Assembly (NCBI RefSeq): GCF_020616155.1
Contig: NZ_CP085530.1
Coordinates: 491,001-555,000 of the forward strand
DNA from: Vogesella sp. XCS3
Lineage (GTDB): Bacteria; Pseudomonadota; Gammaproteobacteria; Burkholderiales; Chromobacteriaceae
Direction: 5' to 3'
DNA: 64,000 nucleotides
Of the stretch, positions 1,425 to 64,000 are shown one piece after another. The notes below the pieces were generated by a model. That model made no database searches. It was not told the DNA's origin and saw only the letters and a program-made list of their open reading frames with translations. Both the position numbers and the translations under genes were made by a program. Position 1 is the first letter of the stretch. The number at the start of each line of letters is the position of its first letter.

Positions 1425-1853
1425 TTAGTGATTGCGGCCAACGATGGCGGCAGTAGCAATCAGCTCTTCCAGCAGGGCTAGCGAGCAGCTGCCAGTGAGG
1501 CGGAACGGGTCCAGCTGCGGTTTTTCCGAGTAGCGCAATAGCAAGCTGGGGTTGACCTTGGCCAGGTTCACCTGGCCCATGGTCCAGCCGGCAAAGCGGC
1601 GCTGGCTGATTTCTTCCAGCATCAGGATTTCCACGTCGTGGTGGCGCGGGTCTTTGGCGATGCTGTTGTACAGCGCGCTGACTTCGGCCCGGCTGCCTTC
1701 CAGAACCTGCATGAAAATATCGCCGCTGTAGCACAGGATGCCGGTAATGCCACGGGCCGGGTTATGGGCATGGGACTGGGCCAGGATGGTTTCCAGCAGT
1801 GCCGCAGTGTGCGGCTGGCTGCTGCGGCTGGCGTAGAGCAGGCGAACAAGCAT
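1425..1853 (-). CDS. BLUF-domain blue-light photoreceptor protein
   Basis: A 142-residue protein that is nearly all BLUF domain, the FAD-binding blue-light sensor. The residues that form the flavin hydrogen-bond switch are present: Tyr7 (LLY), Asn31 (HNPARGITGIL), Gln49 (FMQVLEG), and the Trp90/Met92 pair (GWTMG). There is no fused output domain, so it must signal through a partner or act as a short BLUF protein. It starts with ATG preceded by GAGGAA, eight bases after the stop of folE, so it is almost certainly co-transcribed with folE. The partner cannot be read from sequence. Confidence 0.93.
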   Translation of the reverse strand: MLVRLLYASRSSQPHTAALLETILAQSHAHNPARGITGILCYSGDIFMQVLEGSRAEVSALYNSIAKDPRHHDVEILMLEEISQRRFAGWTMGQVNLAKVNPSLLLRYSEKPQLDPFRLTGSCSLALLEELIATAAIVGRNH

Positions 1854-1861
1854 GGTTTTCC

Positions 1862-2578
1862 TCAGGCTTTCTTGTTGGGCAGCAGGGACAGGAACTCGCG
1901 GCGCAGGTCCGGGTTAGTCAGGAACACGCCTCGCATCACACTATTGATCATCTTGGAATCCATGTCCTTGACGCCGCGCCAGTGCATGCAGAAATGGTCG
2001 GCTTCCATCACGATGGCCAGGCCGTCCGGATTCATTTTGTCCATCAGCAGGTTAGCCAGCTGGATCACGGCTTCTTCCTGGATTTGCGGGCGGCTCATGA
2101 TCCACTCGGCCAGACGGGCGTACTTGGACAGGCCGATCAGGTTGCTGTGCTCGTTGGGCATCACGCCTATCCACACCCGGCCCATGATGGGGCAGAAGTG
2201 GTGCGAGCAGGCGCTGCGCACGGTGATGGGGCCGACGATCATCAGCTCGTTCAGGCGTTCGGCGTTGGGGAATTCGGTAACAGGCGGCTGGCTGACATAG
2301 CGGCCCTTGAACACTTCGTTCAGGTACATCTTGGCCACACGGCGCGCGGTGTCCTGCGTGTTGTGGTCGCTTTCGGTGTCGATCACCAGGCTGTCCAGCA
2401 CGTCTTTCATGCGGGACTGCACTTCTTCCAGCAGCTCGTCCATTTCGCCGGGCTGGATGAACTCGGCAATATTGTCATTAGCGTGAAAACGGCGTTTTGC
2501 GCCGCGGATGCGCTCGCGGATACGTGCGGATACCGGTACGTAAGTCGGGGCGTTGTGCTGGGTGCTGTCTTGGCTCAC
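1862..2578 (-). CDS. folE: GTP cyclohydrolase I
   Basis: Converts GTP to 7,8-dihydroneopterin triphosphate, the first step of tetrahydrofolate and pterin synthesis. The family signatures are visible: the zinc and substrate site CSHHFCPIMG, the second cysteine region MEADHFCMHWRG, and the N-terminal EEVQSRMKDVL helix. A longer reading to 2740 is possible. I chose the GTG at 2578 (VSQDSTQHN) because GAGGAG stands eight bases upstream; this gives 238 residues, normal for the family. The gene is followed at once by a BLUF photoreceptor. Pterins feed the folate antenna of photolyases, so this may be a light-related folE copy, but that is inference. Confidence 0.92.
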   Translation of the reverse strand: MSQDSTQHNAPTYVPVSARIRERIRGAKRRFHANDNIAEFIQPGEMDELLEEVQSRMKDVLDSLVIDTESDHNTQDTARRVAKMYLNEVFKGRYVSQPPVTEFPNAERLNELMIVGPITVRSACSHHFCPIMGRVWIGVMPNEHSNLIGLSKYARLAEWIMSRPQIQEEAVIQLANLLMDKMNPDGLAIVMEADHFCMHWRGVKDMDSKMINSVMRGVFLTNPDLRREFLSLLPNKKA

Positions 2579-2783
2579 GCGTTTATGCTCCTCATCGTGC
2601 GGGTAGCACGCTTGGGTTTCTATAGGGTAGGGCGCTTGGAAGATAGCTGTGCAGGCGGCGAAAGGCAACACCTTGCCTAGTAGGGGTTTGTCCGTTGCAG
2701 CCTGGTGGCTGCGTAAGGTGGCCGGGGCGCTACCGGCCAACAGCGCACCGGGAGGGCGCGCTTGCCTGGCCTGATAGGCGGGT

Positions 2784-3224
2784 TCAGGTGTTGTGGAATA
2801 CGATATCGCATTCCAGATTGGACTTTTGCATGCCGCGCAGCGTGGCCAGGTTGATGATCAGCGGGCTGCGTACATTGGCGCGCAGCTGGGCTAGCACGGG
2901 GTTGGTCTCCTGGCTGTTGAGCTCACGGTACACAATCAGCAGCACCATGGCGTCTTCCGGGCGTGCCAGTGCCAGGGTGGCGATTTCCTCGTCGGATAGC
3001 AGTACCTCGTAACGAATACCCAAGCGGCTGGGGTCGGTTACGCTAAACAGCACGTCCGGGTTGTCCAGTGATTGCAGCCAGTACACGCGCGGGTTATTGC
3101 GGTCCGCATCGTGAAACAGCTTGAAGCGGGTGCAGTTCTCAAAGGCTGGCAGGCCATGTGCAAAAGTAATGATGGTGTTTTCGTCGACGTCTACTTCGCC
3201 CAGCAGGCTGGAATTGAACAGCAT
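2784..3224 (-). CDS. fliW: Flagellar assembly factor FliW
   Basis: A 146-residue protein matching FliW along its length, including the FAHGLPAFE motif near residue 22 and the PLIINL stretch near the C-terminus. FliW proteins bind flagellin and the translational repressor CsrA, and so couple flagellin export to flagellin synthesis. A strong AAGGAG ribosome site precedes the ATG. No flagellar gene or csrA lies beside it in the window, so it is an isolated copy. It implies that the organism is flagellated, in line with the two chemotaxis receptors further on. Confidence 0.93.
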   Translation of the reverse strand: MLFNSSLLGEVDVDENTIITFAHGLPAFENCTRFKLFHDADRNNPRVYWLQSLDNPDVLFSVTDPSRLGIRYEVLLSDEEIATLALARPEDAMVLLIVYRELNSQETNPVLAQLRANVRSPLIINLATLRGMQKSNLECDIVFHNT

Positions 3225-3332
3225 GGCGTGCTCCTTGTGTGGTCAGGCTTTCATTATGCACAAGGCGTGCATCCCGGCCACTGACATTTGTCAGCTTTGT
3301 GGTGGCTGCAGGGGCAGGTACAATGCCGCGCC

Positions 3333-4184
3333 ATGAGCGACACCCTTTCCCTGTATCCGGCAATCGAGGCCGCACTGATGTGCGACTGCATCGTGGCCAA
3401 GCCCGCGCAGGCGCAAGCCTTGTACCGCCAATGGCTGGCGGCTGGTTATGTGCGTGCCGGTGGCCCGCTCTACCCGGTGCCGGCACCGGGCCGGCCGGCG
3501 CGCCCGCAGCTGGTGGCGGCTACCGATGTGCCACGGCGGGGGCTGGGTAGTGTCGAGGGGCGTGCGGCACTGTTGCACGCTATCGCGCATATCGAATTCA
3601 ACGCCATCAACCTGGCGCTGGATGCCGCCTGGCGCTTCCGCGCTATGCCGGACGCCTTTGTGGAAGACTGGCTGCGCGTGGCGGCAGAAGAGGCGCAGCA
3701 TTTTTTGCTGTTGCAGCACAGGTTGGCCGCACTGGGTTACGCCTATGGCGATTTCCCCGCGCACAACACCTTGTGGGACATGGCGGTACAAACCGACCAC
3801 GACGTGCTGACGCGCATGGCGCTGGTGCCGCGGGTGATGGAGGCGCGCGGTCTGGATGCCGTACCGCCGATACAGCGCCGGCTGGCCATCATCGGCGACC
3901 ACGATAGTGCGGCGGTACTGGCCACCATCCTGCAAGAAGAAGTCGGCCACGTGCGCATCGGCAATTACTGGTTTACTACGCTGTGCGATGCGCGCGGGCT
4001 GGAACCCCTGGCCACCTTTCGCAGTCTGCTGGGCCAGTACCATGTGGCACTGCTGCGCGGCGAGATGAACCGCAGCGCCCGGCTAGAGGCCGGTTTTACC
4101 GAATTTGAACTGAGCATGCTGGAAGACTTTAGCGTTACCCGGCAGCGTACTGGTACACGGAGCAAGCATGAACAAGCTGTTTGA
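3333..4184 (+). CDS. DUF455 ferritin-like protein
   Basis: A 283-residue member of the DUF455 family, whose fold is ferritin-like. Helices carrying acidic and histidine metal ligands are visible: AHIEFNAI near residue 83, EEAQHF near 115 and EEVGHVRIG near 200. These are consistent with a dinuclear metal site. The family function is not established. I chose the ATG at 3333 (MSDTLSLYP) over an upstream start because the family begins there and the extra 15 residues are low in quality. Its end overlaps the next small gene by 17 bases. Confidence 0.88.
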   Translation: MSDTLSLYPAIEAALMCDCIVAKPAQAQALYRQWLAAGYVRAGGPLYPVPAPGRPARPQLVAATDVPRRGLGSVEGRAALLHAIAHIEFNAINLALDAAWRFRAMPDAFVEDWLRVAAEEAQHFLLLQHRLAALGYAYGDFPAHNTLWDMAVQTDHDVLTRMALVPRVMEARGLDAVPPIQRRLAIIGDHDSAAVLATILQEEVGHVRIGNYWFTTLCDARGLEPLATFRSLLGQYHVALLRGEMNRSARLEAGFTEFELSMLEDFSVTRQRTGTRSKHEQAV

Positions 4185-4380: not shown

Positions 4381-4431
4381 AAGGGTGTTGAAAAACAGGG
4401 CTTTATGTCGCGATTGTGATCGTTTGCCACC

Positions 4432-4973: not shown

Positions 4974-6323
4974 ATGAAAGCACCCGAACTGCTCCTGCCC
5001 GCCGGTACGCTGGACAAAATGCGCGCCGCCTACGACTTTGGCGCCGATGCCGTGTACGCCGGCCAGCCGCGTTACAGCCTGCGCGCCCGCAACAACGACT
5101 TCAAGCTCGAAGAGCTGCGCATCGGCATCGAAGAAGCCCACGCCCGTGGCAAGAAGCTGTTTGTGGCCAGCAACATCCTGCCGCACAACAGCAAGATCAA
5201 GACCTATATGGCCGACATGGAGCCGGTGATCGAGATGAAGCCGGACGCGCTGATCATGGCCGACCCCGGCCTGATCATGATGGTGCGCGAACGTTGGCCG
5301 CATGTGCCTATCCACCTGTCGGTGCAGGCTAATACCACCAACTACATGGGCGTGAAGTTCTGGCAGAAGATGGGCGTGGAGCGCATTATCCTGTCGCGCG
5401 AGCTGAGCCTGGACGAAATCGCCGAAATCCGCCAGGAATGCCCGGACATGGAGCTGGAAGTGTTCGTGCACGGCGCGCTGTGCATTGCCTACTCCGGCCG
5501 CTGCCTGCTGTCCGGCTACTTCAACCACCGCGACCCGAACCAGGGCACCTGTACCAACGCCTGCCGCTGGGACTACAAAGTGCACGACACCCAGGGCGAC
5601 GACGCCGGTGACGTGAAGCCGCAAAAGATCGACTTCGACTTTGGCAAGGCGCTGGAAGAAGCCAACCAGAGCTTCTCCTCCTGCGGTAGCCAGCAGCGCC
5701 ACCCGCTGGCCGACAAGACCTACCTGATCGAAGAAGCCAACCGCCCCGGCGAGCTGATGCCCATCATCGAAGACGAGCACGGCACCTACATCATGAACTC
5801 CAAAGACCTGCGTGCCGTCGAGCAGGTGGAGAAACTGGTGAAAATCGGTGTGGACTCGCTGAAAATCGAAGGCCGCACCAAGAGCCTGTACTACGTGGCG
5901 CGTACCGCCCAGACCTACCGCCGCGCCATTGACGACGCGGTGGCCGGCCGCCCGTTCGACTACAGTCTGCTGGCCGAGCTGGAAGGCCTGGCCAACCGCG
6001 GTTACACCCCGGGCTTCCTGGAGCGCCACCAGACGCAAGAGCACCAGAACTACCTGTCTGGCCATTCCATCGCCAAGCAAAGCCAGTACGTGGGTGACGT
6101 GATGGAAGTGGACGCCGACGGCTGGGCGCTGATCGACGTGAAAAACCGCTTTGCCGTGGGCGACCGCGTGGAAATCATCCACCCTAGCGGCAACCGCACC
6201 GTCGAGCTCACCGAAATGACCCGCAACGGCGAGGCCACCAGCGTGGCACCAGGTAACGGCGTGAAGGTGAAGATCCCGGGCATGGCCGGTATGGAAAAAG
6301 CCCTGCTGGCACGCCTGCTGTAA
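4974..6323 (+). CDS. trhP: tRNA 5-hydroxyuridine synthesis protein TrhP (peptidase U32 family)
   Basis: A 449-residue protein of the U32 family. It matches the TrhP (YegQ) branch, which acts in prephenate-dependent hydroxylation of uridine 34 in tRNA. It has the family start ELLLPAGTLDKM, the VFVHGALCIAYSGRC cysteine motif near residue 163, and GTCTNACRW near 190. These cysteines are taken to bind an iron-sulfur cluster. Length agrees with the E. coli protein. The related U32 proteins UbiU/UbiV and RlhA are shorter or carry other motifs, so TrhP is the better call. A terminator follows directly. Confidence 0.9.
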   Translation: MKAPELLLPAGTLDKMRAAYDFGADAVYAGQPRYSLRARNNDFKLEELRIGIEEAHARGKKLFVASNILPHNSKIKTYMADMEPVIEMKPDALIMADPGLIMMVRERWPHVPIHLSVQANTTNYMGVKFWQKMGVERIILSRELSLDEIAEIRQECPDMELEVFVHGALCIAYSGRCLLSGYFNHRDPNQGTCTNACRWDYKVHDTQGDDAGDVKPQKIDFDFGKALEEANQSFSSCGSQQRHPLADKTYLIEEANRPGELMPIIEDEHGTYIMNSKDLRAVEQVEKLVKIGVDSLKIEGRTKSLYYVARTAQTYRRAIDDAVAGRPFDYSLLAELEGLANRGYTPGFLERHQTQEHQNYLSGHSIAKQSQYVGDVMEVDADGWALIDVKNRFAVGDRVEIIHPSGNRTVELTEMTRNGEATSVAPGNGVKVKIPGMAGMEKALLARLL

Positions 6324-7448: not shown

Positions 7449-7472
7449 AGTACGCGTGGCTTGCGGCAAAGG

Positions 7473-7501
7473 TTGGCCGCAGGGCGCTTTGGTCGTAAAA
7501 T
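7473..7501 (+). promoter_or_regulatory. Possible argS promoter overlapping a repeat copy
   Basis: TTGGCC and TAAAAT are separated by 17 bases. The -35 hexamer lies within a copy of the dispersed TTGGCCGCA word, which itself can pair with TGCGGC at 7462. The -35 is two mismatches from consensus, so support is modest. Confidence 0.35.
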
Positions 7502-7554: not shown

Positions 7555-9282
<1,728 letters not shown>

Positions 9283-10225: not shown

Positions 10226-10993
10226 TCAGCGCTGTATGCCCAGGCGCTCGACCTGTAGCGGCACCGGGTCCTGCGGGAACCAGCGCTGGTGGATGGTGGC
10301 AAAGCTGCCATCCTGCTTGATGTCATTCAGCGCTTTTTCCCAGCGCAGTATGGTATCGCGCGGCACATTGGGTGAAAAAGCCAGGTACAGGCTCAGGCGA
10401 TCCAGCGTGGCCACGCGCTCTACCGTGGCCAGGGGCAGGCCCTGTTCGCGTAGTACATTGCCCACCACCACATTGCCTTCCACCCACAGTTTTACACGGC
10501 CTGCTGCCAGCATGCGTGCCGAATGGGCGGGGTCGGTAGTGGGGAAAACATTGAAACCCCGGCTGTGCGCCGTACTTTCAAAAATGCTGCCACGGTAGGC
10601 GGCGGTGGGGAGCTTCTGCATGGCTGCCGGGCTGAGCTTGCGTATTTCTGCCGCGTACTGGCGCAGCGCAAACACATCGGTGCTGAATACCAGAATAGGC
10701 CCCAGCAGCGTCATCAGGCGTTCGCGTTCGGCGTTGCGGCCAACCGTAAACAGCAGCACGTCTTTTTCATTGAGCAGGCTGTTATAGGCGCGTGCCCAAG
10801 GCTGTATCTGGATGGGAGTGCTGTCTTTCAGGCGTTCCTGCAGCAGTTTGACGACATCTACGGCCATGCCGTCGGGCTGGCCTTTGTCGTTGGCGAAGCT
10901 GACAGGGGGCCAGTCCTCGGTCAGCAGGGTAAGTGCTTTGGCAGAGAAGCTGGCAGCCAGTAGTGCTACTAGCAGTATCAGGCGATATTTCAT
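10226..10993 (-). CDS. Periplasmic solute-binding-like protein (SBP_bac_3 family), paralogue
   Basis: A 255-residue protein with a signal peptide (cleavage near AKALT, residue 20) and the start LTLLTEDWPPVSFAN, followed by GMAVDVVKLLQERL. The shared DWPP/EWPP and GMAVDIV/GMAVDVV motifs show that it is a tandem duplicate of the downstream neighbour at 9334. The 58-base gap shows no terminator, so both may be co-transcribed. Proteins of this type often bind amino acids, but the ligand cannot be predicted here. No transport partner is present in the window. Confidence 0.87.
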   Translation of the reverse strand: MKYRLILLVALLAASFSAKALTLLTEDWPPVSFANDKGQPDGMAVDVVKLLQERLKDSTPIQIQPWARAYNSLLNEKDVLLFTVGRNAERERLMTLLGPILVFSTDVFALRQYAAEIRKLSPAAMQKLPTAAYRGSIFESTAHSRGFNVFPTTDPAHSARMLAAGRVKLWVEGNVVVGNVLREQGLPLATVERVATLDRLSLYLAFSPNVPRDTILRWEKALNDIKQDGSFATIHQRWFPQDPVPLQVERLGIQR

Positions 10994-11038: not shown

Positions 11039-11080
11039 CAAGTTGGCCGCACGATGCATTGCATCGGTGCGGCCAACTTG
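11039..11080 (-). terminator. Inverted pair of TTGGCCGCA repeats forming a hairpin
   Basis: A 14-base-pair arm made of two opposed repeat copies (11043 and 11068) encloses a second short inverted repeat (GATGCA/GCATC, offset by one base). It lies just after the stop of the minus-strand aminopeptidase gene and probably stabilises or ends its mRNA. The U tract is weak. Confidence 0.6.
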
Positions 11081-11116: not shown

Positions 11117-12910
11117 TTACAGCGGGCGGGTAGCCTGTTGCAGCCAGGCCAGCGCGTCCCCGCTGACCAGCGGGCTGACACGGGCCAGTACTTCGGCGTG
11201 GTAGGCGTTGAGCCAGGCCAGCTCGGCGGGCGTCAGCAGGGCCGGTACGATACAGCGCGTGTCGATCGGGCACAGCGTCAGCGTTTCAAAGCGCAGGAAA
11301 TCACCGAACTCGCTGCTGCCGGCGTCCACATTCAGCAGCAGGTTTTCGATGCGTACCCCCCAGCGACCCGGGCGATAGATGCCTGGCTCGTTGGAGGTGA
11401 TCATGCCGGCTTCCATCGCCATATGCGGCTCGGGGATGGCGCGCGAGATGCTCTGCGGGCCTTCGTGCACGTTCAGGAAGTAACCTACGCCGTGGCCCAC
11501 GCCGTGGCCGAAGTCGATATTGGCTTGCCAGATCGGTGCACGTGCCAGCGCGTCCAGCATGGGCGACAGCGTGCCCTGCGGGAAGTGCGCCAGGCTCAGC
11601 TGGACCATGCCTTTCAGTACCAGCGTAAAGTCGTGCTTTTGCGCGTCGCTCGGCGTACCTACCGCTACCACGCGGGTAATGTCGGTGGTGCCGCCGTGGT
11701 ACTGGCCGCCGCTGTCGATCAGCAGCAGGCCGTCGCCGGCGATCTCGCTGTGGCTGTCTTCGGTAGCGCGGTAGTGCGGCAGTGCGCCGTTGGCGTTGAA
11801 GCCGGCGATGGTGGCAAAGCTGGGGCAGACAAAACCGGGGCGGCGGGCGCGCGCGGCGGTGATTTCTTCATCGATGGTCAGCTCGGTGAGGCGGTTGCGG
11901 CCAACGTTGGCCTCGAACCAGGCAAAGAACTCGGCCAGTGCCGCGCCATCTTGCGCCATCGCTTCGCGTACGAAAGCCGCTTCTTGCGCTGTTTTGCGTG
12001 ACTTCATCAGGGTGGATGGGTTGATGGCCTCGATTACCTGAACACCATCGGCCACCGCCTGGCGCAGGCCCAGGGTGATGCGGCGCGGGTCCAGCAGCAA
12101 GCGGCTGCCGGCGGGCAGGGCGACCAGTGCCGGCTTGGTGGCGTGGTAGTCGGCTACGCTGACACCATCGGTGGCCAGCGTGGCGGCCAGCGCGGCGTCG
12201 ATCTTGCCTGCGCCGACAAACAAGGTGGCACCGTCGTGGCGCAGCAGTGCGTGCGCGATGAACACCGGGTTGTAATTAACATCGGCGCCGCGCAGGTTGA
12301 ACAGCCAGGCGATGTCGTCCAGCGTCGAGATAAAGTGCGCGTCGGCGCCGTGCTGCTGCATGGCGGCGCGTACCGCAGCCAGCTTGTCGCGGCGCGGGGT
12401 GCTGGCAAACGGTGGCAGATGTTCGTAGACAGCGGCGGCCGGCAGTGCAGGGCGCTCGGCCCAGATGGCAGCCAGCGGGTCGAGGTCGGTGCGCAAGGTG
12501 GCGCCGGCTTTGTCCAGTGCGGTTTGCAGCGCGCGCGCGGCGGCCAGGCCCAGCACATCGCCATCAACAGCCAGTACATCACCGCTAGCCAGGTTGACCG
12601 CAAGCCATTCCAGGTGCAGCGGGCTGGCCACGGTCTGGATCTTCATCAGCTGGATCTCGCTGCCGGCCAGCTCGGCCTCGGCTTGTACCCAATAACGGCT
12701 ATCGGCCCACAGGCCGGCAAAATCGCGGGTAACGATCAGCGTGCCTACCGAGCCGTGAAAGCCCGACAGCCAGCGGCGGCCTTGCCAGTAGCCGGGCAGG
12801 TATTCGGACAGGTGCGGGTCGGAAGACGGAATCAGACAGGCGGCGATGCCGTGTTGCTGCATGTGTTGGCGCAGGGCGGCCAGGCGGGCGGAGACAGGGG
12901 TGGCGGTCAT
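11117..12910 (-). CDS. Xaa-Pro aminopeptidase, M24B family (three-domain type)
   Basis: Removes N-terminal residues that precede proline. The 597-residue length matches the long three-domain aminopeptidase P group rather than the 440-residue E. coli PepP. Two creatinase-like N-terminal domains cover about residues 1-310. The catalytic pita-bread domain follows, with its dimetal ligands visible in order: LLIDSGGQY, GTTDITR, GHGVGHGVG, SNEPGIY and RIENLL. All five ligands are kept, so an active enzyme is expected. The last 60 residues match the C-terminal cap of this group. A repeat-based hairpin follows the gene. Confidence 0.93.
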   Translation of the reverse strand: MTATPVSARLAALRQHMQQHGIAACLIPSSDPHLSEYLPGYWQGRRWLSGFHGSVGTLIVTRDFAGLWADSRYWVQAEAELAGSEIQLMKIQTVASPLHLEWLAVNLASGDVLAVDGDVLGLAAARALQTALDKAGATLRTDLDPLAAIWAERPALPAAAVYEHLPPFASTPRRDKLAAVRAAMQQHGADAHFISTLDDIAWLFNLRGADVNYNPVFIAHALLRHDGATLFVGAGKIDAALAATLATDGVSVADYHATKPALVALPAGSRLLLDPRRITLGLRQAVADGVQVIEAINPSTLMKSRKTAQEAAFVREAMAQDGAALAEFFAWFEANVGRNRLTELTIDEEITAARARRPGFVCPSFATIAGFNANGALPHYRATEDSHSEIAGDGLLLIDSGGQYHGGTTDITRVVAVGTPSDAQKHDFTLVLKGMVQLSLAHFPQGTLSPMLDALARAPIWQANIDFGHGVGHGVGYFLNVHEGPQSISRAIPEPHMAMEAGMITSNEPGIYRPGRWGVRIENLLLNVDAGSSEFGDFLRFETLTLCPIDTRCIVPALLTPAELAWLNAYHAEVLARVSPLVSGDALAWLQQATRPL

Positions 12911-14356: not shown

Positions 14357-16132
14357 TTATTGCAGGGTGGCCAGCTGGGCCGGCATGGCCTTGGCTTGCA
14401 CGTATTCGCCAGGGGCGTCGCACAGGGCTGGCAGCTCTTTGCTACCGAATACCTTGGGTGCGGCTACCTTGTCACCCGACTGCGGTGCCAGCCAGCCATC
14501 CCAGTCTTTCCACCAGCTGCCCGGTCGGCTTTCGGCACCGTCCAGCCAGGCGTCCGCGCTGGCGACCAGGTTGTCGTTCACCCAGTAGTTACGCTTGTCT
14601 TTGGTGACAGGGTTGATAGAGCCGGCAATATGGCCGGATGCCCCCAGTACATAGCGGCGCGAGGCTGCTCCGCTGAGGTACTGCACGCCGTCGTAGGCCG
14701 ATTTCCATGGCACGATGTGGTCTTCGCGGGCGGCAAAGATGTACAGCGGGATATCGATCTGCGACACATCGATCTTCACGCCGCACAGCTCGATGCTGCC
14801 TGGCTTGGTCAGCGCGTTGTTGATATAGAACTCTTTCAGGAAGAAAGTGTGCATCGGCAGCGGCAGGTCGACAGCGTCGTTGTTCCAGTACAGCAGGTCG
14901 AACGGTGGCGGCGTCTTGCCCAGCAGGTAGTTGTTGACCACGTAGTTCCACACCAGATCGTTGGCGCGCAGGCTGGCAAAGGTACGGCCCAGCTCCTTGC
15001 CGCTGACAATGCCGCCACCACCGGTAGCGAGTTTTGCTTCGCGGGTCTGGATCAGCTTGTCGTCGATGAAGACCTTGATTTCGCCCGGGTCGGTATGGTC
15101 TACCAGCGAGGTCATGAAGGTGGCGCTGTCGATGTAGTTCAGCTTGCGGTGTTTGAGCACGCACAGCGCGGTATTCAGGATGACGCCGCCAATGCAGAAG
15201 CCCAGCGCGTTCATCGATGGCTGCTTGGTGATCTTGCGAATGGCTTCGGCCGCTGCAATCACGCCTTCTTCGATGTAGTTGTCCCACTTGTAGTGCTTCA
15301 TGTCCGGGGTGGCCGAGCGCCAGCTCACCAGGAACACGCGGTAACCCTGGGCCACGAAGTGGCGCACCATGGAGTTATCCTGCTGCAAGTCCATCAGGTA
15401 GTACTTGTTCACGCACGGCGGTACGATCAGCAGCGGCTTTTCGTAGACCTGCTCGGTGGTAGGGGTGTACTGGATCAGTTCGATCAGCTTGTTGCGGAAT
15501 ACCACTTTGCCCGGGGTGCAGGCAATGTTTTTGCCGATCTCGAACTTGCTTTCGTCCGACATGGAGATATGACCTTTCTGCAGGTCTTCCACCATGTTTT
15601 TCATGCCTTCCACCAGGCTTTCGCCCTTGGTTTCCAGCGCACGCTTCACCACTTCCGGGTTGGTCAGCATGAAGTTGGTCGGCGCCATGGCGTCGATGTA
15701 CTGGCGCGTGGCAAAAGCCAGGCGTTCCTTGTCTTCGCCTTCCAGCTGGGATTTGTCTACCAGCTCGGTCATCCATTTGCTGGTCAGCAGATAGCTTTGT
15801 TTCAGGAAGCTGTAAAAAGGGTGCTCGTTCCATTCCGGGGCGGCAAAACGGCGGTCGCCTGCGGCAGGCTGGGCGGCGGGGGCGCCACCGGCGGGCTGGC
15901 CCAGGAAGGAAAGCCAGATGTTCATCTGCTGCTGGTACAGATTGTTTTGCAGGGCAACAAACTGGTTGGCGTTGTCTACCATCTGCTGCCAGGCGCCGGC
16001 CATCGGGTTGGCCGCATCTTGGGGCGACAGGCCGCTACCCAGCGAATTCACGAACTGCTGCATCCACTTCTGATTGGCTTCGGACAGGTTGGCAAAAAAA
16101 CTGTCCAGTGAGGTGGGGGTTTCCTGACTCAT
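14357..16132 (-). CDS. phaC: Class I poly(3-hydroxyalkanoate) synthase
   Basis: Polymerises (R)-3-hydroxyacyl-CoA into PHA storage granules. The protein has 591 residues from the ATG at 16132, which has AAGGAG upstream; a longer frame to 16270 lacks such support. The lipase-like box GFCIGG carries the catalytic Cys313, and the GASGHIAG histidine lies near the C-terminus. The N-terminal 90 residues include the Gln-rich helix typical of class I enzymes. PhaA follows, so this is a phaCA operon. No phasin or phaR gene adjoins it. A copy of the TTGGCCGCA repeat lies within codons 39-42. Confidence 0.95.
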
Positions 16133-24099: not shown

Positions 24100-24125
24100 A
24101 AGGTTGGCCGCACGCGGCCAACCTT
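24100..24125 (+). terminator. Inverted repeat hairpin between leuD and leuB
   Basis: A perfect 12-base-pair stem with a two-base centre, built from AAGGTTGGCCGC and its reverse complement. One arm is a full copy of the dispersed repeat. No long U tract follows, so it may be an mRNA processing or partial attenuation site within the leu operon rather than a full terminator. Confidence 0.6.
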
Positions 24126-30138: not shown

Positions 30139-30240
30139 ATATTGATGCAGATCTGTTTTAAAACTTAATGTGCTTTGTTATCGCTGCTGCTTGCGGGTAC
30201 TATGTCTGAACATCCAAAAAAACTGAAAAAAGGATATGGG

Positions 30241-36677: not shown

Positions 36678-36710
36678 CTGCGGCCAACCTTTGGTAGACC
36701 GCAGCTTTTA
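36678..36710 (+). terminator. Imperfect repeat-derived hairpin between trpA and accD
   Basis: A 12-base-pair stem with two mismatches (36678-36689 with 36693-36704) and a short loop is followed by CTTTTA. The left arm is a reverse-orientation copy of TTGGCCGCA; the right arm is a decayed copy. It may reduce read-through from trp into accD. Confidence 0.5.
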
Positions 36711-52671: not shown

Positions 52672-52693
52672 GGTTGGCCGCATGCGGCCAACC
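52672..52693 (+). repeat. Perfect palindrome of two opposed repeat copies after speA
   Basis: GGTTGGCCGCA is followed at once by its reverse complement, giving a 22-base perfect palindrome five bases after the speA stop. It holds copies at 52674 and 52683. It would form a short hairpin in RNA or a cruciform in DNA. Confidence 0.85.
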
Positions 52694-54441: not shown

Positions 54442-56532
54442 TTAGTGCTGGTGCAGCTGTTCGGCCTGGATCGCAGTTAGGGCAATGGTGTAAACGATGT
54501 CGTCGACCAAAGCGCCACGCGATAAATCGTTTACCGGCTTGCGCAAGCCCTGCAGCATTGGCCCCACCGATACCACGTTGGCCGAGCGTTGTACGGCCTT
54601 GTAGGTGGTGTTGCCGGTGTTCAGGTCTGGGAACACGAACACGTTGGCACGGCCGGCCACCGGGCTGTCCGGTGCTTTTTGGCGGCCCACCGATTCCACG
54701 CTGGCGGCGTCGTACTGCATAGGGCCGTCGATCAGCAGGCCGGGGCGTTTTTCGCGGGCGATGCGCGTGGCTTCGCGTACTTTTTCCACGTCGTCGCCGC
54801 TGCCGGAGCTACCGGTAGAGTAGGAAATCATCGCCACGCGCGGCGGGATGCCAAACGCTGCCGCCGAGTCGGCCGACTGGATGGCAATGTCGGCCAGCTC
54901 TTCGGCGCTTGGGTCCGGGTTCACTGCGCAGTCGCCGTATACCAGCACCTGGTCCGGCATCAGCATGAAGAACACGCTGGACACCAGTTTGGCCTCCGGT
55001 GCGGTCTTGATCAGCTGCAGGGCAGGGCGGATGGTGTTGGCTGTGGTGTGTACGGCGCCGGAAACCAGGCCGTCTACCTCGTTCAGTGCCAGCATCATGG
55101 TGCCCAGCACCACATTGTCTTCCAGCTGGCGCTCGGCCATCGGGGCGCTCAGGCCCTTGCTCTTGCGCAGCTCGACCATGGGCGCCACGTAGCGGCTGCG
55201 TACCTCGGCCGGCTCGACGATTTCCACACCCTCGGGCAGGCTGATGCCCTGTGCTTCGGCTACTTGCAGGATTTCGGCACGCTCGCCAATCAGCACGCAG
55301 TGGGCAATGCCTTTCTCGTGGCAGATGGCGGCAGCTTTCACCGTGCGCGGCTCATTGCCTTCTGGCAGCACAATGCGCTTGGCGGCGTGGCGGGCTTTTT
55401 CCATCAGCTGGAAGCGGAACGCCGGCGGGGACAGGCGTTTTTCGCGTGTCTGGCCAATGCGCTGTTGCAGCTGGGCTGTGTTCAGGCGCTCGGCGACAAA
55501 GGCCACCACGCGTTCCATGCGCTCCAGGTCGTCGGCAGGCACCTGGCGGCTCATGGCAGCGATCAGTGTGGTGGTATCCAGGGTGTTGGTGTCAATGGAC
55601 AGCACCGGCAGGCCGCTGGTGAACGCCTTGTGGCACAGCTGCTGGATGCGCTCGTCCGGCTCGGCGTCGCAAGTCAGCAGCAAGCCGGCCAGTGGCACGC
55701 CGTTCAGCGTGGCCATGGCGGTGGCCAGGATGATGTCTTCGCGGTCGCCCGGGGTGATGATCAGTGCACCGGGTTTGAGCAGGTGCACGATGTGCGGCAC
55801 GCTGCGCGCCATCACCGACATGCTGCGTACGCGGCGGCGGGTAAGCTGGCCGGCGTGCAGCAGCTTGGCTTTCAGGTAGTTGGCCACGTCCAGCGTGCGC
55901 GGGGCCATCAGCTCCGGCTCCAGCGGGATGCCGCCCAGGCACGGAATGCGGCGCTTCTGGATCAGTTGGCTGGATTCGGCAATTTCGGCGCCCAGCTGCT
56001 TGATGCTTTGCTCGCTGTCCACCCGGTTCAGGATGTAGCCGGCGATGGCGTGGCTGCGGCTGCCAAAGGCCTGAATGGCGATTTCCAGCTTTTCCGCCAG
56101 CTCGTGGCTGGGCTGGGTGTTGGCCGCACCTACCAGGATGATGTCGCATTGCAGCGTGCTGGCCAGCTTGCTGTTGATGTAGGTGGTGAACACGTGTTGC
56201 TGGTCTTGCACCAGGCCTTCCACGATGACCACGTCGACATCTTGCGCGGCTTGCTGGTACAGGCTAACCACTTCTTCCATCAGCTGGTCGAGCTGTCCCT
56301 GGCTCAGCAGGTGCTCGGCGCGATCCATCGGTAGCGGCTCGGGCGCGTTCAGGTGGCACAGCTCGCGGGCGAAGTGCGTGGAACGCTCCGGCTCGTTCGG
56401 GTCCAGCCCCTGGGCGATGGGCTTGACGAAGCCTACCTTCAGGCCGTCCTGCTCCAGCGCGCGCACCAAGCCTAGCGACACCGAGGTGAGGCCGGCGTCA
56501 AAACCGGTCGGCGCAATCAGAAAAGTGTGCAT
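54442..56532 (-). CDS. pta: Phosphate acetyltransferase
   Basis: Interconverts acetyl-CoA and acetyl phosphate. The 696-residue long form has an N-terminal P-loop-like AAA_26 domain (about 1-215; starts HTFLIAPTGFDAGLTSVSLG), a central DRTGG domain (about 215-340) and the catalytic PTA domain in the last 330 residues. Motifs there include LPEGNEPRTVKAA and SYSTGSSGSGDDVEKV. It lies nine bases downstream of ackA, so the two form the usual acetate operon. Confidence 0.96.
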   Translation of the reverse strand: MHTFLIAPTGFDAGLTSVSLGLVRALEQDGLKVGFVKPIAQGLDPNEPERSTHFARELCHLNAPEPLPMDRAEHLLSQGQLDQLMEEVVSLYQQAAQDVDVVIVEGLVQDQQHVFTTYINSKLASTLQCDIILVGAANTQPSHELAEKLEIAIQAFGSRSHAIAGYILNRVDSEQSIKQLGAEIAESSQLIQKRRIPCLGGIPLEPELMAPRTLDVANYLKAKLLHAGQLTRRRVRSMSVMARSVPHIVHLLKPGALIITPGDREDIILATAMATLNGVPLAGLLLTCDAEPDERIQQLCHKAFTSGLPVLSIDTNTLDTTTLIAAMSRQVPADDLERMERVVAFVAERLNTAQLQQRIGQTREKRLSPPAFRFQLMEKARHAAKRIVLPEGNEPRTVKAAAICHEKGIAHCVLIGERAEILQVAEAQGISLPEGVEIVEPAEVRSRYVAPMVELRKSKGLSAPMAERQLEDNVVLGTMMLALNEVDGLVSGAVHTTANTIRPALQLIKTAPEAKLVSSVFFMLMPDQVLVYGDCAVNPDPSAEELADIAIQSADSAAAFGIPPRVAMISYSTGSSGSGDDVEKVREATRIAREKRPGLLIDGPMQYDAASVESVGRQKAPDSPVAGRANVFVFPDLNTGNTTYKAVQRSANVVSVGPMLQGLRKPVNDLSRGALVDDIVYTIALTAIQAEQLHQH

Positions 56533-56541: not shown

Positions 56542-57732
56542 TTATTTGCCCTGAGTCAGTGCAGCGGTGTCCAGCGCAATCATCAGCTCTTCATTGGTGT
56601 TGATCACCAGGGCGGCCGTGCTATCGGCGTGGCTGATGCGGCCGGCCTTGCCGCGGAAGGCGGCATCGTTGGCCGCAGCGTCCAGGCTAAAGCCCAGGAA
56701 GGCCAGTTTGTTCAGTACATTGGCGCGCACAAAGGGCGAGTTTTCGCCGATGCCGCCGGTAAACAGCAGGACATCAATGCGGCCCAGTGCCACCACCATG
56801 GCGGCGATCTGCTTGGCCAGGCGGTAGCAGAATACTTCCATAGCAATAATCGCACCCGGGTGGCCGTTGGCCGCAGCTTCTTCCAGCTCGCGGCAGTCGC
56901 TGGACAGCTCGGACAGGCCCAGCAGGCCGGACTGCTTGTTCAGCAGGGCGGTGATGCCGTCTACGTCGGTATTCAGGGCGCTGGCCAGGTAGCCAAACAG
57001 GCCAGGGTCGATATCGCCGGAGCGGGTGCCCATCACCAGGCCTTCCAGCGGGGTGAGGCCCATGCTGGTGTCTACCGACTGGCCATTGAGGATGGCGGCA
57101 ACCGAGGCGCCGTTACCCAGGTGGGCACTGACAATGGCGCTGTTTTCCAGGCTGATGCCCGCCATGCGGGCGGCTTCTGTCGCAACAAAACGGTGGCTGG
57201 TGCCGTGGAAGCCGTAGCGACGCACGCCGTGTTCGCGGTACAGCGCCATCGGTACGGCGTACAGGTAGGCGTGCTGTGGCATGGTCTGGTGGAAGGCGGT
57301 GTCGAACACGGCTACCTGCGGCAGGCCCGGGAAGCAGGCTTGTGCGGTACGGATGCCCAGCAGGTTGGCCGGGTTGTGCAGCGGCGCCAGGCGTGCGCAG
57401 TCTTCGATGGCGGCCAGAACGCTGTCGTCAATCAGGGTGGAGGCGTGGAAGTTTTCACCGCCGTGTACTACACGGTGGCCAATAGCAGTAATGCTGCCCG
57501 TCAGTGCGCGCTCGTCCAGGTAGGACAGGATGGCTTTCATGGCGCCGGCGTGGTCGCCCTGTGCCAGTGTCAGTTCCACCTTCTGGCCGGCCTGTTTGAA
57601 GGTGATGCAGGCGCCGGCCATGCCCAGTTTCTCTGCCAGGCCAGTCAGGGTTGTGTCCTGGGTCTGGGCGTTGATGAGGGCGAATTTCAGCGACGAGCTG
57701 CCGCAATTGATGACGAGTGTGTGGGTGATCAT
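56542..57732 (-). CDS. ackA: Acetate kinase
   Basis: Makes ATP and acetate from acetyl phosphate. The 396-residue protein has the phosphate-binding start VINCGSSSLKF, the motif HRVVHGGENFHAS (near residue 88) and the adenosine loop FTGGIGENSPFVR (near 325). With Pta it forms the acetate overflow pathway. The gene is first in the operon, and its promoter must lie in the 466-base gap to the divergent Rieske gene. Two repeat copies lie inside it (56669 and 56867). Confidence 0.96.
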   Translation of the reverse strand: MITHTLVINCGSSSLKFALINAQTQDTTLTGLAEKLGMAGACITFKQAGQKVELTLAQGDHAGAMKAILSYLDERALTGSITAIGHRVVHGGENFHASTLIDDSVLAAIEDCARLAPLHNPANLLGIRTAQACFPGLPQVAVFDTAFHQTMPQHAYLYAVPMALYREHGVRRYGFHGTSHRFVATEAARMAGISLENSAIVSAHLGNGASVAAILNGQSVDTSMGLTPLEGLVMGTRSGDIDPGLFGYLASALNTDVDGITALLNKQSGLLGLSELSSDCRELEEAAANGHPGAIIAMEVFCYRLAKQIAAMVVALGRIDVLLFTGGIGENSPFVRANVLNKLAFLGFSLDAAANDAAFRGKAGRISHADSTAALVINTNEELMIALDTAALTQGK

Positions 57733-59377: not shown

Positions 59378-59905
59378 ATGCCTGCCTGCCGTTGCTGGCC
59401 CTTGTTGGCCATTCTGCTTTCCTTTCCTTTTGTATCGCACGCTGCACCTTATCGCCATGCCGGTCTGGGGGTGACCCTGTCTGTGCCCGATGGCTGGAAG
59501 GTACGCCCCGCCCCCGGGGGAGGCTTGCGCGTATTGCCACCCCAGATGGAAGACCGCGAGCGCAGCGGGGTAGCGGTGACCGTGTGGCGCGAGCGTTTGC
59601 GTGGTGGTGCTGCTCTGGAGAAGTTGGCCGCACGGCACAAGAAGGCGCAAGGGGCGCGTGAGGCGGCGATTCGCGCCCAGCTGGACCGCAAAGCAGAACG
59701 GCTAGTGCTGGAGTACCGCGAGGGCGAGTATGTGCAAAGCGGCTTATGGATTGTGCGCCAGCATCTGAAAGTGGTGCAGCAGGATGGAAAGCAAGGCGTG
59801 TACGCCGAGTGCGTGGCCAATGCGTCCGAGTATCACCGCTATCGCCGTGCTTTTGCCGATATCTGCCTGGGGCTGACCGTGCGCCCTGTCTCTGCCAAGG
59901 GGTAG
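59378..59905 (+). CDS. Exported hypothetical protein
   Basis: A 175-residue protein with a signal peptide (cleavage near SHAAP, residue 22), so it should be periplasmic. The rest has no motif I recognise. It is basic and Arg-rich (for example RERLRGGAALEKLAARH) and has one or two cysteines near the C-terminus (YAECVAN and DICLG) that could form a disulfide. It lies four bases before the first EamA gene and may be co-transcribed. The ribosome site is weak. Confidence 0.7.
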   Translation: MPACRCWPLLAILLSFPFVSHAAPYRHAGLGVTLSVPDGWKVRPAPGGGLRVLPPQMEDRERSGVAVTVWRERLRGGAALEKLAARHKKAQGAREAAIRAQLDRKAERLVLEYREGEYVQSGLWIVRQHLKVVQQDGKQGVYAECVANASEYHRYRRAFADICLGLTVRPVSAKG

Positions 59906-59909: not shown

Positions 59910-60764
59910 ATGACTAGCTGGTTTGCACGGTTGGGGTCGGCCTGGATGGTGGTGGCGGCGGCCAGTTTTGCCTGCATGAGCCTGCTGGCCGCCATGGCCA
60001 GCCAGCATATGGGGGCGATCGAGATCCTGTTCTACCGTACTGCCATTGGCCTGGCGGTATTGCTGGTACCGGTGGCGCTGGGGCGTGAGCGCGTGGCGAC
60101 GGTGCATTGGCCTGCGCACTTTCGCCGCAGTATTGCCGGCTACCTGTCCATGGCCATGCTGTTTTATGCGCTGACCCAGCTGCCGCTGGCCACGGCGGTG
60201 ACCTTGAATTACACCTCCTCGCTCTCTTTTGCCGTCTGCTGCGTGCTGTTGCGCGGCGAGCGCTTGTCGCAGCTGGTGAAGCTGGCGTTGCTGCTGGGCT
60301 TTGTCGGCATCGTGCTGATTTTGCGGCCAACCTTTCATGCCGGGCAGTGGCTGCCAGGCCTGGTTGGCCTGCTCTCCGGTGCAGGGGCGGGGTTGGCGCT
60401 GTTTCATGTGCGCGAGCTGGGTGAGCTGGGCGAGCGTCCCGGGGTGACGGTGTTCTGGCTGTACTTCTTGTCTACCGTATGTGGCCTGGCCTGGGTCCTG
60501 CTGCAAGGTGGCTTTACCCCGCTGGGGCTGTCTGATCTGGCGGCCATGCTGGGGGTGGGTTTGCTGGGCTTGCTGGGGCAGCTGGCGATGACGCGCGCCT
60601 ATAAAGAAGGCCGCAAATTTGTGGTATCCAGCCTGGCCTATCTTACCGTGGTGTTTTCCGCGCTATTGGGGGTGGTGTTTGGTGGCCAGCCGCTGTCGGC
60701 CAGTGCGGTGCTGGGCATGTTGATGATTATTGGCTGCGGCATGTTGGCCGCGAAGGGTTCGTAG
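59910..60764 (+). CDS. EamA/DMT-family transporter
   Basis: A 284-residue membrane protein with ten hydrophobic segments arranged as two EamA repeats of five helices. Members export metabolites, amino acids or drugs. Conserved motifs include LPLATAVTLNYTSSL near residue 91 in the first repeat and AYKEGRKFVVSSLAYLTVVFSALLG in the second (in part: SSLAYLTVVFSALL). It overlaps its paralogue by one base (TAGTG). The substrate is unknown. Confidence 0.9.
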   Translation: MTSWFARLGSAWMVVAAASFACMSLLAAMASQHMGAIEILFYRTAIGLAVLLVPVALGRERVATVHWPAHFRRSIAGYLSMAMLFYALTQLPLATAVTLNYTSSLSFAVCCVLLRGERLSQLVKLALLLGFVGIVLILRPTFHAGQWLPGLVGLLSGAGAGLALFHVRELGELGERPGVTVFWLYFLSTVCGLAWVLLQGGFTPLGLSDLAAMLGVGLLGLLGQLAMTRAYKEGRKFVVSSLAYLTVVFSALLGVVFGGQPLSASAVLGMLMIIGCGMLAAKGS

Positions 60765-61594
60765 TGGGCGGTGCGTGGTGGATGGTGTTGGCGGCAGCCA
60801 GTTTTGGTGCCATGGGGGTGTTCGTGAAGCTGGCTGCCGCCACGCTGGGTACGGTGGAGCTGGTGTTCTGGCGAACGGCATTTGCCGTGCTGGTGCTGGG
60901 CAGTGTGGCCTTGTTGCGCAGGCAGCGTTTTGCCACGCCTTTGCTGGGGCAGCATCTCAAGCGCGGCACGCTGGGTTACGTGTCATTGCTTTGCTATTTC
61001 TATGCCATCAGCCATTTGCCGCTAGCCACGGCAGTAACGCTGAATTACACCTCGCCGATGTTCCTGGCCTTGCTGTCTGTATTACTGCTGGGTGAGCGTT
61101 TGCCGCGTAGCGGGGCGCTGGCCATGATGCTGGGTTTTGCCGGCGTGGTATGGCTTTTGCGGCCAACCTGGCACGAGCTGGGCTGGTTGTCCGGCGTGTT
61201 GGGTTTGTTGTCCGGTTTGCTGGCGGGTTGGTCTTACCTGCATGTGCGCGAGCTGGGGCAGGCGGGCGAGGCCGAGTGGCGCACGGTATTTTACTTTGCC
61301 CTGATTTCTACTCTGGGCGGCTTATTGCTGATGCAGTTTCAAACTTGGCACCCCTTGACTGCGGCCAACGTGCCGTGGGTATTGGGCCTGGGGGTGAGCG
61401 CCATGGTGGCGCAGCTGGCCATGACGCGCGCCTACAAGGTTGGCCGCAAGCTGCTGGTGGCCAACTTGTCTTATCTGACGGTGGCCTTCTCCGCGCTGTT
61501 CGGTGCTTTGCTATGGCAGCACTGGCTGGGTTGGCAAGAGCTGGCTGCCATGAGTTTGATTATTCTCAGCGGCATTCTGGCCAGCCGGCGCTAG
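60764..61594 (+). CDS. EamA/DMT-family transporter, tandem paralogue
   Basis: A 276-residue transporter with the same ten-helix plan and almost the same motifs (LPLATAVTLNYTSPM, ANLSYLTVAFSALFG) as its neighbour, so a tandem duplication. It starts with GTG inside the stop of the upstream gene, and is therefore translationally coupled. The two could work as a heterodimer or have split substrates. Three reverse or forward repeat copies lie within it (61158, 61360, 61440). Confidence 0.9.
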   Translation: MGGAWWMVLAAASFGAMGVFVKLAAATLGTVELVFWRTAFAVLVLGSVALLRRQRFATPLLGQHLKRGTLGYVSLLCYFYAISHLPLATAVTLNYTSPMFLALLSVLLLGERLPRSGALAMMLGFAGVVWLLRPTWHELGWLSGVLGLLSGLLAGWSYLHVRELGQAGEAEWRTVFYFALISTLGGLLLMQFQTWHPLTAANVPWVLGLGVSAMVAQLAMTRAYKVGRKLLVANLSYLTVAFSALFGALLWQHWLGWQELAAMSLIILSGILASRR

Positions 61595-62043: not shown

Positions 62044-62063
62044 ATCACGCTACCCCGCACCCG

Positions 62064-62090
62064 CGGCAGCCTGCCTGGCTGCCGTTTTTT
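62064..62090 (+). terminator. Intrinsic terminator after the SpoIIAA-like gene
   Basis: A CGGCAGCC/GGCTGCCG stem with a five-base loop is followed by TTTTTT. Confidence 0.88.
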
Positions 62091-62184
62091 ATTGTCATGA
62101 AGCACGGCGGCCCCGTCGGCCTTGATTTTCCGGTGTATGCCGTTACAGTAGCGGCTTCCGTTTTCCCGCAAGAACAAAAAAAGC

Positions 62185-64000
62185 ATGTTGAAAAGTATCG
62201 CCAGCCGCCTTGCGGCAGAGCTCGCCGTGCGCGAGGCCCAGGTTACTGCCACCGTTAACCTTATCGATGAAGGTGCTACCGTCCCGTTTATCGCCCGCTA
62301 CCGTAAAGAAGTGACCGGCGGCCTGGACGACACCCAGCTGCGCCTGCTGGCCGAGCGCCTGGTGTATCTGCGCGAGCTGGACGATAGGCGCGATACCATC
62401 CTCAAAAGTATCGCCGAGCAGGGCAAGCTCACCCCGCAGCTGGAGGCTGCACTATACGGCAGCGATAACAAGACCCAGCTGGAAGACTTGTACCTGCCAT
62501 ACAAGCCCAAGCGCCGCACCAAGGCGCAAATCGCCCGTGAGGCCGGCCTGGAGCCGTTGGCCGACAGCCTGCTGGCCGACCCCTCGCAGCAGCCGGAGCA
62601 AGCTGCCGCCGCGTATATCGACAGTGCCAAAGGTGTAGAAGATGCCAAGGCCGCGCTCGATGGCGCGCGTGCCATCCTGATCGAGCGCTTTGCCGAAGAC
62701 GCCGAGCTGCTAGGCCAGCTGCGCGAAAAACTATGGAACGAAGGCGAGCTGGCCGGCAGTGTGGTAGCGGGCAAAGAGCAAGAGGGCGCCAAATTCGCCG
62801 ATTACTTCAACCATCGTGAAGCCATCAAGACCACGCCATCCCATCGCGCGCTGGCACTGCTGCGTGGCCGTAACGAGGGTGTGCTCAGCGTGGCACTGAA
62901 ATACCAGCCGGACGAAACGCCCATCACCCAGCGTTCGGCTTATGAAGAGCTGATTGCCGCGCGCTTTGGTATCAAGGATGCCGGCCGCCCTGCTGATAAA
63001 TGGCTACTGGACGGCGTGCGCCTGTGCTGGCGCGCCAAAATATTCCTGTCACTGGAGCTGGAGCTGGTGTCGCGCCTGAAGGATGCGGCCGATGCAGACT
63101 CCATCAAGGTATTTGCGGCCAACCTCAAAGACCTGCTGTTGGCCGCACCGGCCGGCCCGCGCGCTACGCTGGGCCTGGACCCCGGCTTGCGTACCGGCGT
63201 TAAGGTGGCCGTGGTGGACAATACTGGCAAGCTGCTGGAAACCACTACCATCTACCCGCACGAGCCGCGCCGCGACTGGGAGCGTTCCATCGCTATCCTG
63301 GGTGCGCTGGCGCACCGCCACCAGGTAGACCTGATTGCCATCGGTAACGGTACCGCCAGTCGCGAAACCGACAAACTGGCGCAGGATGTGATCAAAGCCT
63401 TCCCGCAGTTGGGTATGACCAAGATCGTGGTGAGCGAAGCCGGGGCATCGGTGTACTCCGCTTCCGAGCTGGCGGCCAAAGAGTTCCCTGACCTGGATGT
63501 CAGCCTGCGTGGCGCAGTGTCCATCGCCCGCCGCCTGCAAGACCCGCTGGCCGAGCTGGTCAAGATCGACCCGAAATCCATCGGCGTGGGCCAATACCAG
63601 CACGACGTGAACCAAAGCCAGCTGGCGCGTAGCCTGGATGCGGTGGTGGAGGATTGTGTGAACGCAGTGGGTGTGGACGTCAACATGGCTTCCGTGCCGC
63701 TGCTCACCCGTATCTCCGGCCTTAACAGCACGCTGGCGGCCAACATCGTGGCGCATCGCGATGCCAATGGTGCTTTCAAGTCGCGCCGCGAGCTGCTCAA
63801 AGTCAGCCGTCTGGGTGAAAAAACCTTCGAGCAAGCCGCTGGCTTCCTGCGTATTGGTAATGGCGACAACCCGCTGGATGCGTCATCGGTGCACCCGGAA
63901 GCCTATCCTGTCGTAGAAAAGATCGTGGCCAAAACCGGGCGCCCGGTAAAGCAGATCATCGGTGACTCTGCCTTCATCAAGGCGCTGCGTCCTGCAGACT
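62185..64000 (+). CDS. tex: RNA-binding transcription accessory protein Tex (3' end outside window)
   Basis: The first 605 codons of Tex, a nucleic-acid-binding protein tied to transcription and RNA metabolism. The N-terminal helical domain contains [18 protein letters not shown] YqgF-like domain begins near residue 325 ([19 protein letters not shown]). Helix-hairpin-helix units ([20 protein letters not shown]) follow near 515. The C-terminal S1 domain would lie beyond the window end. Start ATG at 62185 has only a weak purine-rich ribosome site. Two repeat copies lie within it (63114 and 63139). Confidence 0.94.

Follow-up and report, generated by a model that had tools for sequence, protein, structure and literature searches.

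The 64 kb of Vogesella sp. XCS3 DNA analysed here (the window; own genome 3.89 Mb) carries, inside genes and between them, many copies of a short word (Table 1) that, usually preceded by AG, is very likely the DNA uptake sequence (DUS) of Vogesella, read by the minor pilin ComP and sister to the DUS of the Neisseriaceae. The nine-mer TTGGCCGCA was found 42 times on the two strands together, the first at 1433–1441 and the last at 63139–63147, and 100 dinucleotide shuffles of the window gave a mean of 2.06 copies and a largest count of 7. Because G stands in front of 41 of the 42, the unit was taken to be the 10-mer GTTGGCCGCA. An earlier note on the same DNA had counted about 39 copies against an expectation of 0.75, an excess of about fifty-fold; the excess stands, with 42 copies, but its size does not, being about 20-fold when measured against the dinucleotide model.

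Over the whole genome TTGGCCGCA occurs 2,471 times against 68 for the reversed word, and GTTGGCCGCA 2,279 times (1,173 forward and 1,106 reverse) against 11 (8 and 3). A 464 kb sample, made up of 20 evenly spaced 20 kb stretches and the window, was used for the analyses that follow within this genome. It held 292 copies of GTTGGCCGCA where a third-order Markov model with the word masked predicts 2.3, a large excess in the comparison that the earlier note had proposed for the word and its one-mismatch variants. Among these variants, those at +10 were clearly tolerated (C 47, G 38 and T 17, with 2.6–4.4 expected), and mild enrichment was seen for C at +1 (12 observed, 3.0 expected), T at +7 (9 and 2.3) and T at +9 (7 and 1.1). 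The flanking bases that stood out most were A at −2 (58%) and G at −1 (58%), followed by A or C at −3 (about three quarters) and C at −4, which bears out the AAGG noticed earlier in front of the core. The full unit is AG-GTTGGCCGCA, and what the copies have in common is the core of 10 bases with about four more on its 5′ side.

Genes in the sample were called with a simple script of our own. Inside them lie 223 of the 292 copies, in all six phases though unevenly (sense 40, 4 and 68; antisense 7, 13 and 91), and 60 synonymous-codon shuffles of the same genes gave a mean of 6.7 copies and a maximum of 11. The excess is therefore not due to codon use, as the earlier note had held, and the restriction to one codon phase that it named as contrary evidence was not seen. 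An intragenic position bias was looked for and rejected (first and second halves of genes: sense 44 and 50, antisense 48 and 50). Density was about twice as high between genes (1.13 per kb) as in coding sequence (0.55 per kb). Close pairs numbered 14. There were 13 hairpin pairs, 11 of them intergenic, and none of the ten hairpins with both neighbours known lay between divergent genes. The opposed pairs at gene ends described earlier are present in the window at three places (Table 1), the second arm of one ending in G. Relative to the direction of replication, 154 copies were leading and 138 lagging (p 0.38; strand taken from the skew of each stretch). The second contig of the genome (C2, L231–L238; 164.5 kb), which has a lower GC content of 0.50–0.54, had 4 copies in 160 kb, against a predicted 101 (Poisson p ~1e-37), its own Markov expectation being 0.8, and the word is thus not a property of all the DNA of the cell. 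One 20 kb piece of this contig had no near match among the plasmid collection.

Table 1. Copies of the word and other features in the window
Feature	Position	Strand	Remark
GTTGGCCGCA copy	1433..1442	-	exact match
GTTGGCCGCA copy	3722..3731	+	exact match
GTTGGCCGCA copy	5293..5302	+	exact match
GTTGGCCGCA copy	7472..7481	+	exact match
GTTGGCCGCA copy	9207..9216	+	exact match
GTTGGCCGCA copy	10735..10744	-	exact match
Convergent GTTGGCCGCA pair	11042..11077	+/-	intergenic; 11042-11051 +, 11068-11077 -
GTTGGCCGCA copy	11896..11905	-	exact match
GTTGGCCGCA copy	16007..16016	+	exact match
GTTGGCCGCA copy	18565..18574	+	exact match
GTTGGCCGCA copy	18810..18819	+	exact match
GTTGGCCGCA copy	20473..20482	-	exact match
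CTTGGCCGCA	21229..21238	-	variant with C at +1; the sole nine-mer of the 42 without a preceding G
GTTGGCCGCA copy	21412..21421	+	exact match
Hairpin	24103..24122		GTTGGCCGCA 24103-24112 + opposite a copy whose +10 base is G; 10 bp past called gene end 24092
FimV/HubP match	27895..30138		polar landmark models
GTTGGCCGCA copy	28465..28474	+	exact match
GTTGGCCGCA copy	30075..30084	+	exact match
FimV/HubP match	30175..32238		polar landmark models; under curated cut-offs
GTTGGCCGCA copy	31146..31155	-	exact match
GTTGGCCGCA copy	33517..33526	+	exact match
GTTGGCCGCA copy	33995..34004	-	exact match
GTTGGCCGCA copy	34136..34145	-	exact match
GTTGGCCGCA copy	36679..36688	-	exact match
GTTGGCCGCA copy	38653..38662	-	exact match
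GTTGGCCGCA copy	40345..40354	+	exact match
GTTGGCCGCA copy	41288..41297	+	exact match
GTTGGCCGCA copy	41880..41889	+	exact match
GTTGGCCGCA copy	43373..43382	-	exact match
GTTGGCCGCA copy	44672..44681	+	exact match
GTTGGCCGCA copy	45082..45091	+	exact match
Perfect palindromic pair	52673..52692	+/-	52673-52682 +, 52683-52692 -; flanked by convergent genes with called ends at 52666 and 52758
GTTGGCCGCA copy	56119..56128	+	exact match
GTTGGCCGCA copy	56668..56677	+	exact match
GTTGGCCGCA copy	56866..56875	+	exact match
GTTGGCCGCA copy	59623..59632	+	exact match
GTTGGCCGCA copy	60322..60331	-	exact match
GTTGGCCGCA copy	61158..61167	-	exact match
GTTGGCCGCA copy	61360..61369	-	exact match
GTTGGCCGCA copy	61439..61448	+	exact match
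GTTGGCCGCA copy	63114..63123	-	exact match; divergent pair with the 63138 copy
GTTGGCCGCA copy	63138..63147	+	exact match

The family was taken as the genome collection draws it, with 61 genomes that include Vogesella, Aquitalea, Crenobacter and one Gulbenkiania-like genome; in the NCBI taxonomy Vogesella, Aquitalea and Gulbenkiania belong to the Chromobacteriaceae and Crenobacter does not. GTTGGCCGCA was found 1,871–2,895 times in each of the 13 Vogesella genomes, against 8–58 times in all 48 genomes of the nine other genera, and no more than 52 times in each of the 296 genomes outside the genus in an order-wide sample of 300. Facing word pairs were found at no fewer than 80 loci in named genomes, 79 of the 80 listed lying in named Vogesella, Neisseriaceae metagenome-assembled genomes (MAGs) or 'Beta proteobacterium L13', and whole-genome counts for V. 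fluminis, V. indigofera, L13 and one MAG were 1,936–2,442. The remaining locus among the matches listed, in one Azonexus, was set aside as a chance match, the genome holding only 10 copies. Of 55 unpaired copies aligned between species of Vogesella, 40 were identical, compared with 35% of GC-matched 10-mers. Word pairs and alignments above 97% were excluded from this test because the Vogesella loci had been chosen by word pair; without these exclusions 63 of 78 were identical, compared with 34% of control 10-mers. In another genus, GTTGGCCGAA stood in place of the Vogesella word at two of 11 aligned copies, a sample too small for use.

Other words emerged from k-mer spectra of 20–40 kb samples of the sister genera. 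GTTGGCCGAA (GAA) is abundant in G010 of genus g2, the genus of Aquitalea magnusonii G005 (1,368 copies), in G036, Crenobacter sp. SG2303 (579), in G038, which is close to Gulbenkiania (1,245), and in G037 (2,168), G045 (1,851), G046 (1,104), G047 (183) and G048 (893), against 8–78 copies in the other 53 family genomes and at most 47 in any genome of the order sample outside the family. GTTGGCCGAG (GAG) occurs 1,940 times in G034, Crenobacter cavernae, and 1,590 times in G035, C. luteus, against 13–165 times in the other 59; G036 is intermediate, with 165 of these beside its GTTGGCCGAA copies. The seven word-bearing groups sampled had word densities of 0.27–0.63 copies per kb. In all of them A was the base most often seen at −2, as was G at −1, and AG plus the core was the commonest 12-mer in six, coming second by one copy in C. 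cavernae. No comparable word was found in samples of the word-less genera (100 kb each of g2 G002, g4 and g8; 120 kb of g3), where the top words were low-complexity, repeat-like or weakly enriched. Judged by their letters, the Vogesella word, GTTGGCCGAA and GTTGGCCGAG form a set of dialects with changed last bases. The comparison with related genera suggested earlier therefore places the excess of GTTGGCCGCA in Vogesella only and sister words in sister genera.

Several smaller observations accompany these counts. G010 contains, beside GTTGGCCGAA, a second word GTTTGCCGAA (T at +4) found 8 times where 0.2 are expected (L247, L259, L260), perhaps two dialects in one genome as a passage of Frye et al. 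(PMC3630211) describes for Simonsiella. G040 and G043 (g8) show a mild excess over other g8 genomes (GTTGGCCGAG 92 and 85, GTTGGCCGAA 62 and 45), possibly decaying remnants. A mild excess was also seen in distant families, where GTTGGCCGCA was found 34 times against 2 for the reversed control in G123 (f18), and GTTGGCCGAA 33 times against 10 in G187 and 47 against 16 in G344 (both f44). In G022 (g3; L164, L165, L252–L255), CCCCTCTCCC occurs 15 times in 120 kb where 0.0 are expected and is probably a dispersed repeat.

The evidence does not support the earlier view that the word has no relation to the Neisseria DUS, as layout, 5′ AG and receptor are common to both. In both cases a 10-mer core carries a two-base 5′ extension, most commonly AG, and is present in huge excess on both strands, with genus-wise dialects, facing pairs at gene ends and ComP in the genome; the change between A and C at +9 that separates the GAA dialect from the Vogesella word is also that between kingDUS and king3DUS. 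Aligned without gaps and in register, AGGTTGGCCGAA (AG-GTTGGCCGAA) has the same base as AG-mucDUS and AG-simDUS at 9 of the 12 positions (shuffle p 0.011 if orientation and shift are left free, 0.004 if the register is fixed), while AGGTTGGCCGCA (AG plus the Vogesella word) agrees with DUS at 8 of 12 (p 0.083 and 0.017, respectively), as does AGGTTGGCCGAG (p 0.064). The eight described dialects, however, have an invariant CTG at +6 to +8 that is CCG here, so the Vogesella word was not filed as one of them, and it also differs in having G at +5. The A at +10 found in all Neisseriaceae dialects is kept in the GCA and GAA dialects; the Crenobacter dialect has G there. Of seven known dialect cores, none was clearly enriched in the 464 kb (0–9 copies, at most 4.3 times expectation). 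A degenerate pattern for the known dialects was uninformative, lying above its reversed control in 61 of 61 genomes, word-bearing or not.

Uptake words are described for the Neisseriaceae and Pasteurellaceae in a passage of PMC1939737. The uptake signal sequence of the Pasteurellaceae is likewise a short word in great excess, but of AAGTGCGGT or ACAAGCGGT type and with PpdA as its proposed receptor (a passage of PMC12616744). Frye et al. (2013; PMC3630211), in the portion available, write that Laribacter, Lutiella, Pseudogulbenkiania and two Chromobacterium have no obvious DUS. Among the matches listed from the open-access PubMed Central (PMC) literature there was no report of these words or of an uptake sequence in the family beyond Frye et al., and Vogesella was not mentioned with uptake sequences in the open-access papers searched. 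The letters of TTGGCCGCA occur once in an excerpt of PMC2924362.

The earlier note had suggested looking for a ComP-like minor pilin, and all 13 Vogesella genomes have an orthologue of ComP, the pilin that serves Neisseria as DUS receptor. The ComP of this genome scores 32.4 bits against PF16732 (cut-off 27.3), and in sequence and predicted fold, with a control run, its globular domain matches solved ComP (PDB 5HZ7, 2M3K, 2NBA) rather than other pilins; the prepilin N-terminus, the WP.LP motif and, in most word-bearing species, a basic residue in the β1–β2 loop are also shared. Presence of PF16732 was ruled out as evidence of uptake, the model, which also matches PilE-like pilins, having hits in every one of the 61 family genomes and passing the cut-off in 60. 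The best match of this genome, L004, is a PilE-type pilin and was ruled out as the receptor. In Neisseria ComP the DD region is pinned by two disulfides (four Cys), whereas this ComP has a short D region and two Cys, a C-terminal pair only, the second disulfide being absent; among Vogesella ComPs four Cys were found only in G055 and G059, at positions not matched to the second bond. A further difference from Neisseria is that comP lies near aroB in the three Vogesella loci examined, the locus of this genome also including aroK-pilQPO. ComEC and DprA genes were found in the genome. Directly upstream of Vogesella comP, with a one-base overlap, is a gene for a GspH/FimT-type pilin (L239 5603–6142, + strand), which could be a second DNA-binding pilin. 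In the window, two adjacent genes match FimV/HubP models (Table 1) and may encode pilus-related landmark proteins in tandem.

The DD region and the tip of the β1–β2 loop contact DNA in Neisseria ComP, according to a passage of PMC4906244. We aligned 53 ComPs, 23 from word-bearing and 30 from word-less genomes (G008 and the g3 genomes G027–G029 were left out, and g4 had none), and the loop residues differ between the two sets of sequences. A Lys or Arg after [YF] in the loop behind the long helix was present in 22 of 23 word-bearing and 0 of 30 word-less ComPs, and N.D in the β1–β2 loop in 22 of 23 and, by column, 3 of 30. Just before N.D, Arg or Lys was found in 19 of 23 against 1 of 30; this residue, which aligns with the basic residue of the Neisseria β1–β2 loop, is Arg in every one of the 13 Vogesella, and six of the ten other word-bearing genomes have Lys there. 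G010, the sole word-bearing g2 genome, has ANTDAG where eight other g2 ComPs have GNAR.

The uneven use of phases might suggest codon or composition bias, but this was already refuted by the synonymous shuffles (6.7 against 223) and the reversed control (11 against 2,279) and its probability is negligible. A terminator, or a mobile repeat like the repetitive extragenic palindromic (REP) elements, spread through the genome would fit the higher intergenic density and the position of the hairpins, 11 of 13 intergenic and 0 of 10 between divergent genes. With 223 of 292 copies inside genes, only 14 close pairs and sharing limited to the core and about four 5′ bases, this is highly improbable, the solitary coding copies already disfavouring it. 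A recombination, segregation or nucleoid site apart from uptake (Chi, FtsK-orienting polar sequences (KOPS), a site like highly iterated palindrome 1 (HIP1), a methylation or protein-binding motif) is very unlikely, though such sites can be abundant, genus-specific and conserved. Chi and KOPS have a strong replication-strand bias, which is absent here (154 against 138, p 0.38) and disfavours the Chi-like alternative raised earlier. The word is also not palindromic, its facing pairs lie at gene 3′ ends, the words parallel the change in ComP, and the second contig, which would need repair or segregation as well, is nearly without GTTGGCCGCA.

An uptake sequence might instead be read by another surface protein, such as a FimT- or PpdA-like minor pilin, with ComP covarying by shared ancestry. 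ComP in word-less genera as well, the single Cys pair of the ComP in this genome, the GspH/FimT-like pilin encoded beside it and the proposal of PpdA in the Pasteurellaceae (a passage of PMC12616744) would all suit such a reader. We consider it unlikely, as the ComP loop residues track word status, including in G010 (itself without the Lys/Arg) against the eight other g2 ComPs. The suggestion of the earlier note, an uptake signal in the Chromobacteriaceae, is supported as to both uptake and family, though not in its separation from the DUS, by the excess in one genus, the sister words, ComP in all 13 genomes and the conservation between species, and is backed also by the absent strand bias and the near absence from the second contig.

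Several points weigh against a ComP-read uptake sequence. The likeness of the Vogesella word itself to the DUS is only suggestive as a sequence comparison (p 0.083), and at +7 it has C where all described Neisseriaceae dialects have T. No report of competence in Vogesella was found among the open-access matches listed, and a paper on V. indigofera genetics, in the portion available, moved DNA by conjugation (PMC12826045). The ComP of this genome lacks the second disulfide, the bond that a passage of PMC12061091 reports as crucial for DUS binding in Neisseria. PilV outscores one ComP structure entry (2m3k), and the ComP profile scores favour the genera used to build the profile. Orthologues are present in word-less genera too, and having ComP is therefore not enough to predict the word. 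Models for ComEC and DprA match 10 and 11 of the 14 control genomes, E. coli being one of those matched, so these genes prove little. The covarying positions were picked after the alignment was viewed, G010 lacks the helix-loop Lys/Arg, and G010, G034, G038 and G045 lack the loop Arg/Lys. Placing the word labels on the ComP tree takes about five changes, and the rows are related; Fisher p values therefore overstate the case, which comprises few events, not 53.

From these data we infer DNA binding and uptake in natural competence, with ComP as the reader, and the word very probably marks DNA as self, so that DNA of kin is recognised and taken up. Double-stranded DNA carrying the word would be bound by a ComP-like minor pilin that sits on a retractable type IV pilus, then drawn in through PilQ and handed to ComEC, and DprA and RecA would recombine it into the chromosome, a chain that is established in Gram-negative competence. 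Tagged fragments would enter preferentially, so that transformation would spread and repair the copies, and DNA from kin would be favoured over foreign DNA. In sister genera, where the last bases of the word (GTTGGCCGAA, GTTGGCCGAG) and the ComP loops differ, the device would be the same, while other lineages of the family would keep a diverged ComP without the word. We therefore propose a sister set to the DUS, with the same device and receptor family but a different code.

We lean, with less assurance, towards a broader history in which ComP-read words predate the Neisseriaceae and extend beyond them, a second ComP branch without the DD region reads AG-GTTGGCCG plus two variable bases through the post-helix basic residue and the β1–β2 loop, and dialects were gained, lost and switched with matching receptor changes. 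A practical use may be the addition of the word to DNA to make Vogesella transformable. If this history is correct, the gains, losses and switches would be a natural experiment for reading a protein–DNA code. With three or more dialects, word-less sisters and simpler ComPs, the origin and switching of uptake specificity would be traceable, and how ComP reads DNA, an unsolved question, would become testable by comparing receptors among environmental bacteria.

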